The notes under the pieces are model-generated. The model was not told where the DNA came from and did not search any database. It worked only from the letters and a program-made list of their open reading frames with translations. From Verrucomicrobia bacterium S94 (lineage in GTDB: Bacteria > Verrucomicrobiota > Kiritimatiellia > Kiritimatiellales > Pontiellaceae), in the NCBI GenBank assembly GCA_004299845.1, contig CP036201.1:3534001-3598000 (forward strand): a stretch of DNA of 64,000 nt. Direction: 5' to 3'. Positions 56,532 through 64,000 of the stretch are shown here, one piece after another (the stretch's first letter is position 1; each line of letters begins with the position of its first letter). The position numbers were made by a program, and so were the translations under genes.

Positions 56532-56552
56532 TATTTTTCCAACCATTGGAAA
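56532..56552 (+). promoter_or_regulatory. TTTCCA-N5-TGGAAA operator-like palindrome upstream of autotransporter
   Basis: TTTCCA (56536-56541), ACCAT, TGGAAA (56547-56552), overlapping a TATTTT element at 56532-56537. The sequence around it (TATTTTTCCAA) recurs before grpE. Lies 13 bases before the start codon, partly over the ribosome site region. Confidence 0.6.
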
Positions 56553-56565
56553 CAGGAGTTTTTGA

Positions 56566-59500
56566 ATGATGCGCGTTTTGAAGATTTTGGGTCTGTCAGT
56601 AATTTGCAGCGGGGTTGTGCTGGCGCAGTACACCAATGTCATTGAAGATGGCCAGACCATACAGGTGGTCAGCGACTGGGATAACGGAGGTGCTGATCTG
56701 ATCGTTGGCGGTACTTCGGGCGGAAATACTCTGTACATCAATACGGGTTATGTGGTGTCGAACAGCAGCGAAGTGGTGATCGGTCGTGATGCCGGAGCCG
56801 ATGAAAACAGGGTCGATCTCGACGGTTCGGGCCTGCTGGTGAATGGCGATATGATTGTGGGCGGTGAAGGGGACGGTAATCTGCTGCTGATTGATAATGA
56901 TTCCTATGTGGAGAACTCCAATGCCTATGTCGGAGTGAATTCGGAGGATAATGCAGTCGCGGTAACCGACGACAGTGTCTGGAATAATAACGGGACGCTG
57001 TATCTGGATTCGGGTTCCGGCAATGCCGTATCGGTCAGTAGCGGCGGACAGGTACTCGCCGACAGCCTGCAGCTGAGTGGGGATAATGTTTTTAACCTGA
57101 ACAATTCCGGCGTGCTTTTGCTGCGTTCCGATTTTAATGTTTCGACCAGTGGATTCAATTGGAATACGGGGGGACATCTTTATCTGACCAATGGAACGCT
57201 GACCGGACTTACCGACACCAATGGGGCCACCTATCTTCACGATGAGCGGGATCTGACGCTGAATGATGCCGATATGGATGTCTCCGGTACGGATCTGACG
57301 GTCGGTGACTTCGGCTCCAACAGCGATCTGCAGATTCTGAACGGCGGCACCGTGCTGGCGGATAACGGGGTGATCGGTTCGGGCAGTGATGCGGAGGATA
57401 ACTCCATTATTGTTTCCGGCGAAGGCTCTTCACTGAGCTTCAGCGAGGGCGGCCTGCAGATCGGGGTCAATGCAGGAACCGGCAATGCGCTGGGGGTTTT
57501 TGACGGGGCCTGGACATTTGTCGGGGATGCGGGCACGAACGATGTTGCCGGCACGACCAACGGCGGTCTGATTGTTGCGCATTCCTCCGGAGCGACGCTG
57601 GAGCTGGATAACAGTGCTGTGGTCAGTGTTGACGGTGGGCTGTTTGTAGGAACCGCCGGAGGGGGAACCGGTGCGGTGACTATTGCAAACGGAAGTTCGG
57701 TCGGCGTAGGAACGGTTGAAATTGAAGACGGCAGTCAGATTGAACTTCAGGAATACGGCGCTTTTCTGGTGGAAGGCGATTTTATTTACGGCAACGACAG
57801 TTCAAAGTTTGTCTGGGAGGACTATACGACGCTCGGTGTCGGTGGGACCCTGAGTAAAACGAACGGTCTGGACGGTACGCAGCGGACGCTGAATCTCAAC
57901 GGCGGTGACTGGGCCCTGGCGGACAGCACGGTGATTTCGGGCATAAGCAATACGGTGCAGGTGCTGGATGGCGGTACGCTGACGACGACGAACGGATTGC
58001 TTTCCGGAACAAACAATGCCGTGGTGATTTCCGGTACTGATTCGCATTGGGAAAATGCAGGGTCTCTTTATGCGGAAGGAACAAACAACAGTGTTTCCGT
58101 GGCTTCCGGAGGGAAGGTTTCGGCAACCGGTGTAGATTTTGAAGATGGTAATGCATTTAATATCAATTCCGGCGGTACGCTGGCACTGACCACGAATCTT
58201 TTTGATTGGTCGGCTGTTGAAAACATCAACTGGAACAGCGGCGGTAATCTGGCGCTGATCGATGGTGAAATTACGGGACTGGATAGCACAAACCTGGTGT
58301 TCAACGGCTCCACGAACAGTGCGGTTTCTGTAGGCGGCGGGCGCAGTCTTACGCTTGAAAACGGGACCTGGGATGACAACAGCGCTGACCATCTGGTGGT
58401 GGGGTTGAATCAGAGCGGAGAAACAGTCGCTATTTCCAACAAAACAACCATGGTGCATAACGATGCCTATATCGGCTGGGGCAGTGGGTCCGAAGGAAAC
58501 AGTGTCGTGGTTTCCGATGCCGATACGCTGTGGGAGGTGCAGGGCGGTGATCTGTATATCGGAGCCTATTGGGTCGACGGAACCAATCTGACCGCAACCG
58601 GCGGGAATGATAATTATCTCTATGTCCGTGACGGTGCCCAGGTGTTCGTCGGGGATACCACGACCAACGAAGCCGGTGTTCTGGTGGCCTCAAGTGACGG
58701 AGCGACCATGACGCTGGGGGATGGCCGGGTGGAGATTGACGATACGCTCTTTATCGGTCAGGGAGTGAATACCGGTATCGTTACGATTATGGACGGCGGC
58801 GATATGCGGGTCGGTGATCTGAAGATTGCGGCCGGCAGTGAACTGGACCTGCAGGAGAACGGAATCTTCCGGATCAGCACTAACCTGAATATGGATGTTT
58901 TGGCAGGAAACGGATTTGACTGGTATTCCACCAACTCCACCGTTCAGGTGGACGGAACGCTGACGCGTTCGGATTATTTTCTGGATAAAGAACAGAACCT
59001 GATTCTCGGAACCAACGGGCTTTGGGATACCGGCGGGGCGGATCTGATTGTGGGTGTGGACGGAAACAGTAAACTGACCGTACGGGATACCGGTGAGCTG
59101 AATGCGGGAAATATCACCATCGGGGGATCGGTCAGCAACGGCGGATCCAGTGCGGTTATCGTGGATGGCGGCGTTCTGAATGGAACAGATGTTATTATCG
59201 GTGCGGATACCGATGAGAACTATATGGAAATTTCTGATCAGGGTTCCGTGAACCTGCTCGGTTCGGTTTATCTCGGAGGGACCAATTCGACGGGGAACTA
59301 TGTGCTGCTCGACGGCTCCAATACCACGATGAACATCGGAGGGGACCTTTGGGTCGGTGCTGCGGATACCAACAGCTCAGGCAATATTTTCTATCTTCAG
59401 AATCAGGCGGAGCTGACGGTGGACGGCGATGTTTTCGTTTTCGGTGGAAACCGGATGGTCTTGAGCGATGGGACCAATTTTGTCGGCGGAGACTTTACGG

Positions 59501-63464: not shown

Positions 63465-63507
63465 TTGACAGTTCTTGGGTTTCGCGTATTTTTCCAAGCT
63501 CTGGAAA
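63465..63507 (+). promoter_or_regulatory. grpE promoter with TTTCCA-N5-TGGAAA palindrome
   Basis: TTGACA (63465-63470) and TATTTT (63487-63492) are 16 bases apart. The palindrome TTTCCA (63491-63496), AGCTC, TGGAAA (63502-63507) overlaps the -10 and the expected start point, where a bound protein would block transcription. No CIRCE-type element is seen. Confidence 0.65.
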
Positions 63508-63546: not shown

Positions 63547-64000
63547 ATGGCTAAAAAAGAAAAGATTCAGGAAGAAGAGCTTAAGGCAGAAGAAGCGATT
63601 GCTGAAGAGGCGGTTGAAGAAACTGCTGAAGAGGCGGTTGAAGAGACGGCTGAAGAAGTGGAAGAGCTTCCGGATACTGAAGTTATTGAAGACGAGGAAA
63701 CGGCTCCTGAGGTCGAGGAAGAGGAGGACGAATCCCTACGCGACCAGTTTGTGCGTCTTCAGGCTGATTTTGCCAATTTCCGGAACCGGACGCAGCGCGA
63801 ACGGGTCGAACTTTATCAGCGTGCCAACGAAGATCTGCTGCTGGAAATTCTGCCGGTACTCGACCATTACGAAATGGGCCTGAAGACGGCTGAAAAGCAC
63901 GATGCCGACAAGGCGGTGGTGGATGGATTTAAAATGGTCTATGACCAGTTCCGGAACGTTCTGAAAAAATTTAATCTCGAGCCGATTGATGCGGTAGGGC
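63547..64000 (+). CDS. grpE: Nucleotide exchange factor GrpE (5' part)
   Basis: The first 151 residues are visible; the gene leaves the window. After a very acidic, repeat-like N-terminus (EEAVEETAEEAVEETAEE, about residues 20-37) come the long helix and bundle of GrpE: SLRDQFVRLQADFANFRNRTQRERVELYQRANEDLLLEILPVLDHYEMGL. GrpE releases ADP from DnaK. The acidic leader is longer than in E. coli GrpE. Ribosome site AAAGGA. Next genes outside are probably dnaJ or dnaK. Confidence 0.93.
   Translation, partial: MAKKEKIQEEELKAEEAIAEEAVEETAEEAVEETAEEVEELPDTEVIEDEETAPEVEEEEDESLRDQFVRLQADFANFRNRTQRERVELYQRANEDLLLEILPVLDHYEMGLKTAEKHDADKAVVDGFKMVYDQFRNVLKKFNLEPIDAVG

Follow-up and report, generated by a model that had tools for sequence, protein, structure and literature searches.

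A palindrome before an autotransporter gene and grpE as one of a genome-wide family of sites for a putative chromosome-wide DNA-binding protein

The palindrome TTTCCA-N5-TGGAAA that precedes an autotransporter gene in Verrucomicrobia bacterium S94 is probably one site of a genome-wide family that serves a putative dimeric, lineage-specific and chromosome-wide DNA-binding protein, either a nucleoid-associated protein or a global regulator. The sites number in the hundreds or more, are selected at the level of the DNA and lie both inside genes and between them, as do the sites of a sequence-specific nucleoid-associated protein. The original prediction had offered two other readings, a single regulator for an adhesin gene and a chaperone cofactor gene, or a lineage-wide core-promoter element, and neither survived the analysis.

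Two copies in the window

The window analysed here is a stretch of 64,000 nucleotides, and it holds two exact copies of the palindrome with the same arms and the same 5-base spacer, as had been predicted, one with the centre ACCAT and one with the centre AGCTC (Table 1). The interval first assigned to the autotransporter copy, 56532-56552, contains the palindrome and also four extra bases, TATT. The core of the pattern, TTCCARNSNYTGGAA, occurs twice in the window, compared to 0.01 occurrences expected from dinucleotide shuffles.

The left arm of the autotransporter copy shares bases with a TATTTT hexamer, in agreement with the original prediction, and the grpE copy has the same overlap; at both positions it is conserved in the genus. 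Upstream of the autotransporter copy we recognised no −35 element, the best hexamers matching at 2 of 6 positions. Because only 2 of the 117 exact sites in the S94 genome overlap a TATTTT (a few per genome do so elsewhere), the two promoter sites are special among the sites, and from their conservation they look functional. As a separate observation, the grpE promoter combines a perfect TTGACA with a TATTTT −10 element inside a genus-conserved string, GTTT(C/A)GCGTATTTTT.

Table 1. Palindromic sites of the window and the elements and genes beside them, in window coordinates
Feature	Position	Strand	Details
Palindromic site, copy 1, TTTCCA-ACCAT-TGGAAA	56536..56552		core TTCCARNSNYTGGAA at 56537-56551
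TATTTT, possible −10 sharing bases with the left arm of copy 1	56532..56537	+	predicted from sequence
AGGAG, probable ribosome-binding site right after the copy 1 palindrome	56554..56558	+	read from sequence
Autotransporter gene, 1554 aa	56566..61230	+	ATG at 56566; PF03797 beta-domain, residues 1276-1534
Palindromic site, copy 2, TTTCCA-AGCTC-TGGAAA	63491..63507		exact; before grpE
grpE promoter, TTGACA-N16-TATTTT	63465..63492	+	−35 TTGACA at 63465-63470, then 16 bp, then TATTTT at 63487-63492; kept across the genus whether or not the palindrome is there
grpE (PF01025), 5′ part within the window	63547..63999	+	ATG at 63547

Abundance, consensus and helical phasing

We counted the pattern across the whole S94 genome (4.1 Mb, one contig) and found 117 exact copies, well over chance, while the reversed control pattern with the same spacer was absent. 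An excess of this size is consistent with the operator-like character first proposed, that of a selected site of the type bound by a sequence-specific protein. When all spacers from 0 to 25 were searched together, 164 matches were obtained, and only 47 of them had a spacer other than 5 (about 1.9 per length). Because the other spacers add so few, it is the bipartite 17-bp palindrome that is in excess, rather than its half-site.

The core TTCCARNSNYTGGAA has 243 copies in the S94 genome (control, 0-4), between 923 and 2005 copies in four congeners (923, 1309, 1977 and 2005), 1731 in G012 and 837 in G081. It is nearly absent from three other congeners, G050 (8), G087 (9) and G300 (0). In a scan of the phylum, several families of this class proved rich in the exact pattern, which reached 1363 copies in G012 (with 1 in G015) and numbered 0-8 elsewhere, close to its control. 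Site-rich families include f2, f4, f8, f10, f21 and f22. Related genomes differ in this respect: the palindrome is frequent in some congeners and class relatives, and nearly absent from the three congeners with 0-9 cores.

Exact copies from four genomes gave the full consensus TTTCCA-R-N-S-N-Y-TGGAAA, in which 84-100% of sites have C or G as the middle base of the centre. Of the arm positions, the outermost is the least strict, and mismatches favour it. Fixed arms around a variable centre had been predicted; the arms are indeed fixed and the centre is looser, but it follows the pattern R-N-S-N-Y genome-wide, and at the autotransporter gene ACCAT is identical in three species. Some families (those of G068 and G242) use the dialect CCA-Y...R-TGG, which is a drift of specificity between families. 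Three sequences from families f10 and f16 (L064, L065 and L074) carry the dialect, as in TTTCCATAGCGTGGAAA, TTTCCACACTGTGGAAA and TTTCCATTGAGTGGAAA, and there again in 30-31 bp arrays.

Neighbouring sites are phased with the DNA helix. The two half-sites of one palindrome are 11 bp apart, which is one turn, and neighbouring palindromes in relatives are separated by 21-23, 30-32, 42, 53, 62-63, 84-85, 94 or 106 bp (31-32, 62-63 and 94 bp within the G012 arrays). Fifteen pairs of neighbours in G081 have a phase coherence of 0.92 at 10.5 bp. With the 30-32 bp pairs removed, the nine remaining G081 pairs have a coherence of 0.91, and none of 5000 random sets reached as high a value. Tandem duplication could explain a spacing of 31 bp alone, but not this mixture of spacings. 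The S94 genome rarely has arrays, its 2 pairs being too few for a phasing test.

We also scanned prokaryote genomes for site pairs 30-32 bp apart. Among the matches listed, all those that bear a name were Lentisphaerae, Kiritimatiellae and other Verrucomicrobia, including two metagenome-assembled genomes that are labelled 'Spartobacteria' and 'Opitutia', and we infer that the lineage carrying the arrays is the class Kiritimatiellia. Three of 2.9 million viral contigs in IMG/VR (L303, L304 and L305) have a 31-bp array with 2-6 exact sites each. Samples of 20-73 kb from site-poor genomes yielded no other iterated palindromes, save GC-rich motifs. The literature searched returned no match to the sequences tried and, by topic, nothing on a TTTCCA-N5-TGGAAA motif.

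Gene positions, conservation and alternative explanations

Positions relative to genes were scored with a simple in-house caller, whose gene borders are approximate, and the S94 sample includes stretches picked for having a site and was used for positions only. Of the 102 core sites in that sample, 67 are genic and 34% are intergenic, compared to 14% of bases. Genic sites fall in all three reading frames (30/9/28 in the S94 genome and 19/20/16 in G035), and the constraint therefore acts on the DNA. The 100 bp after stop codons are enriched 4- to 11-fold in four genomes, and the 3′ flanks of genes in relatives are enriched as strongly as the 5′ flanks. Intergenic sites make up 86% of those in G012, where they are often arrayed and also occur between convergent genes. 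The 117 exact S94 sites divide into 65 in the ori half of the chromosome and 52 in the ter half, with ori placed at about 3.3 Mb and ter at about 1.27 Mb by approximate estimates from skew, and no macrodomain role is visible from so even a spread.

Two further observations concern individual copies. The intergenic copies at L053:3879 and L028:5733 lie inside longer stems followed by T runs, forming hairpins that resemble intrinsic terminators. At L141:6237-6290 and on the minus strand of L016 near 5310, a dispersed element carries a palindrome copy, right after which come GTAG and a GGCCACGTC...GACGTGGC hairpin; it resembles a GTAG-tagged REP and occurs twice in some 0.8 Mb of S94 sequence.

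These positions bear on the reading of the palindrome as a classical regulon operator, bound by one transcription factor at the autotransporter gene, grpE and other promoters, with the genic sites as tolerated by-products. The enrichment predicted at 20-60 bp before start codons was found in the S94 genome (12 sites observed and 2.0 expected, or 6-fold over the genome average), and the grpE and autotransporter sites are conserved between species in position and centre, over the predicted transcription start. However, about two thirds of the sites are genic and these are conserved as well, the 3′ flanks equal the 5′ flanks in relatives, and some arrays separate convergent genes. In the S94 and G081 genomes together, divergent intergenic regions have fewer exact sites than the rest of the intergenic DNA (p = 0.004), although the core sites of G012 show no depletion in divergent regions. 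By eye, the genes that follow sites in the syntenic region have no common function (ABC-F, OsmC, IMPase, ExbB/TolQ, PheS, PilC and SppA). We therefore consider a regulon operator unlikely; its narrower form, a small regulon or the two-gene regulator of adhesin and chaperone cofactor, is contradicted by the 117 exact and 243 core copies, by their positions across the genome and by the enrichment of 3′ flanks.

We compared 404 kb of S94 sequence with G035 (83% identity where aligned), a small sample in which 14 S94 sites aligned without gaps. All 12 arm bases are kept in 9 of these 14 sites, while 18% would be expected from all windows and about 24% from the product of single half-sites (p = 0.0016). 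Differences between the two genomes number 7 in 168 arm bases and 17 in 70 centre bases (p about 1e-5); in orthologous sites the arms stay and the centre drifts, and genic sites are conserved too, rather than only those at promoters. Where a site is present in one genome only, the other has ungapped sequence that is one to four arm bases away. Consequently, substitution is what creates and maintains the sites, and an inserted element is excluded.

The two promoter sites have been followed through the genus. The grpE −35 and −10 elements, TTGAC-N16/17-TATTTT, are conserved, with the palindrome over their downstream edge. The palindrome is exact in G227, G247, G127 and G303 and has one mismatch in G035 and G159; in G050, G087 and G300, which keep the −35 and −10 elements, it has decayed or is missing. 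Its decay in genomes that are nearly free of sites points to a trans-acting factor that would have been lost from them. Before the orthologous autotransporter genes of G035 and G227 the site is unchanged, down to its ACCAT centre; in the N-terminal part, the proteins of these two share 80% and 49% identity with that of S94.

Gain by point substitution, together with very high counts in genic and intergenic DNA, would also fit an iterated palindrome of the HIP1 type that arises from DNA methylation and repair, in the absence of an architectural protein. PflMI is a type II enzyme with the site CCA-N5-TGG, which is the inner part of the palindrome. Unselected S94 sequence contains 162 occurrences of CCA-N5-TGG, 77 of them as TCCA...TGGA, and 37-142 occurrences for other spacers, so that CCA-N5-TGG with other flanks does not clearly exceed other spacers. 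Mismatches fall preferentially on the outermost base, as is reported for HIP1 (PMC4390886). Nevertheless, an extent of 15-17 bp and helical phasing are unexpected from methylation, and this origin is quite unlikely.

The same high count, substitution gain and genic and 3′ positions, as well as the occasional use of copies as terminator stems and the lineage dialects of the centre, are compatible with a DNA uptake sequence, a motif that builds up as competent cells prefer DNA bearing it. Such preference leaves the whole-turn phasing of neighbours unexplained, and the uptake sequences known to us are short and never dimeric palindromes, which makes this explanation very improbable. A mobile extragenic palindrome spread by copying, as in REP/RAYT systems, is extremely improbable: the sites are palindromic and form tandem arrays in intergenic DNA, and Y1_Tnp genes (PF01797) are common, yet genomes lacking a site have ungapped, partly matching sequence at orthologous genic positions, the number of Y1_Tnp genes is untied to that of sites (2 weak matches with 1363 sites in G012, and 21 with 1 site in G015), no GTAG tag is present and sites lie within coding frames. 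Finally, the lineage-wide core-promoter element, suggested by the TATTTT overlap that is conserved at both window copies, is scarcely credible and as a general role is refuted, because the overlap is confined to 2 of 117 sites, most sites lie away from promoters and the grpE −35 and −10 elements outlive the palindrome in congeners.

Putative protein and comparison with known systems

A chromosome-wide architectural or global protein is favoured over an operator, and over marks of the Noc or MatP kind, because of the numbers of sites, their genic positions and their even spread over the replichore halves. What we infer from these regularities is a protein that would bind cooperatively as a dimer, have an architectural role and may act at both promoters. 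Each half-site, TTTCCAR, would be read on one face of the helix; two half-sites of 6-7 bp set one turn apart, a constrained centre and neighbours at whole turns are what a dimeric protein of the helix-turn-helix type would need to sit on one DNA face. Neighbouring dimers, placed near multiples of 10.5 bp, would lie on the same face, probably bind cooperatively and bend, wrap or loop the DNA. At grpE and the autotransporter gene, the bound protein would cover the predicted −10 and start region and may affect transcription; regulation of both genes is plausible, probably as repression or timing.

Several candidates were compared with this pattern. A Noc-like ParB paralogue was rejected, as site-rich and site-poor genomes nearly all have a single HTH_ParB match, and so was HU/IHF, which is alike in both kinds of genome. 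Lrp/AsnC, a candidate prompted by the 31-bp spacing, has one copy in site-rich and site-poor congeners alike. An RNA hairpin as the main function was also rejected: the hairpin region of the window transcripts folds no better than shuffles, the sites ignore reading frame, and phasing is a property of DNA.

More broadly, and as a tentative proposal that we hold possible but do not favour, part of the Kiritimatiellia would have its own chromatin system, in which a putative dimeric protein on up to about 2,000 palindromes of 15-17 bp per genome, in some lineages in one-face arrays, packages the chromosome and regulates a few promoters such as that of grpE, its specificity having shifted from CCA-R to CCA-Y between families and the system having been lost in some congeners. 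To our knowledge, only a few organisers of bacterial chromosomes are strictly sequence-specific, and tens of sites are usual for them; the features that stand out here are copy numbers of up to about 2,000, helical phasing, lineage dialects and loss in some congeners. If the proposal is true, site-rich and site-poor congeners are a natural experiment, a comparison of their proteomes should name the protein, and the sites would account for a large fraction of the constrained synonymous positions in these genomes.

Known systems share some of these features. Lrp/AsnC and Fis bind dimer sites of about 15-17 bp that are helically phased, and they can wrap or bend DNA. The present sites are alike in size and helical register, but their specificity is much stricter, and site-poor genomes also have one Lrp-family gene. 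REP/BIME extragenic palindromes, which are GTAG-tagged (PMC3733652), are likewise palindromic, repeated and in tandem in intergenic DNA, whereas the sites described here are not inserted, are untagged and also lie inside genes. HIP1 of cyanobacteria (PMC4390886) has thousands of copies in genic and intergenic DNA and is lost or variant in some lineages; HIP1 itself is linked to methyltransferases. By comparison, our site is longer and bipartite, its N5 centre follows a fixed pattern and its neighbours are phased by whole turns.

The binding sites of Noc in B. subtilis are palindromes scattered around the chromosome (PMC4331003). Noc, and SlmA of E. coli, share with the present family chromosome-scattered palindromes that have a sequence-specific reader (here a candidate) and are not ordinary operators. 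Here, however, the sites are far more numerous and form phased arrays in relatives, a second ParB-type protein is absent, and the 65 and 52 sites of the ori and ter halves have no bias to or away from Ter of the Noc or MatP type. While it departs from the definition of each in the features tested, the family appears to resemble Noc and SlmA in function, and HIP1 in number and scatter.
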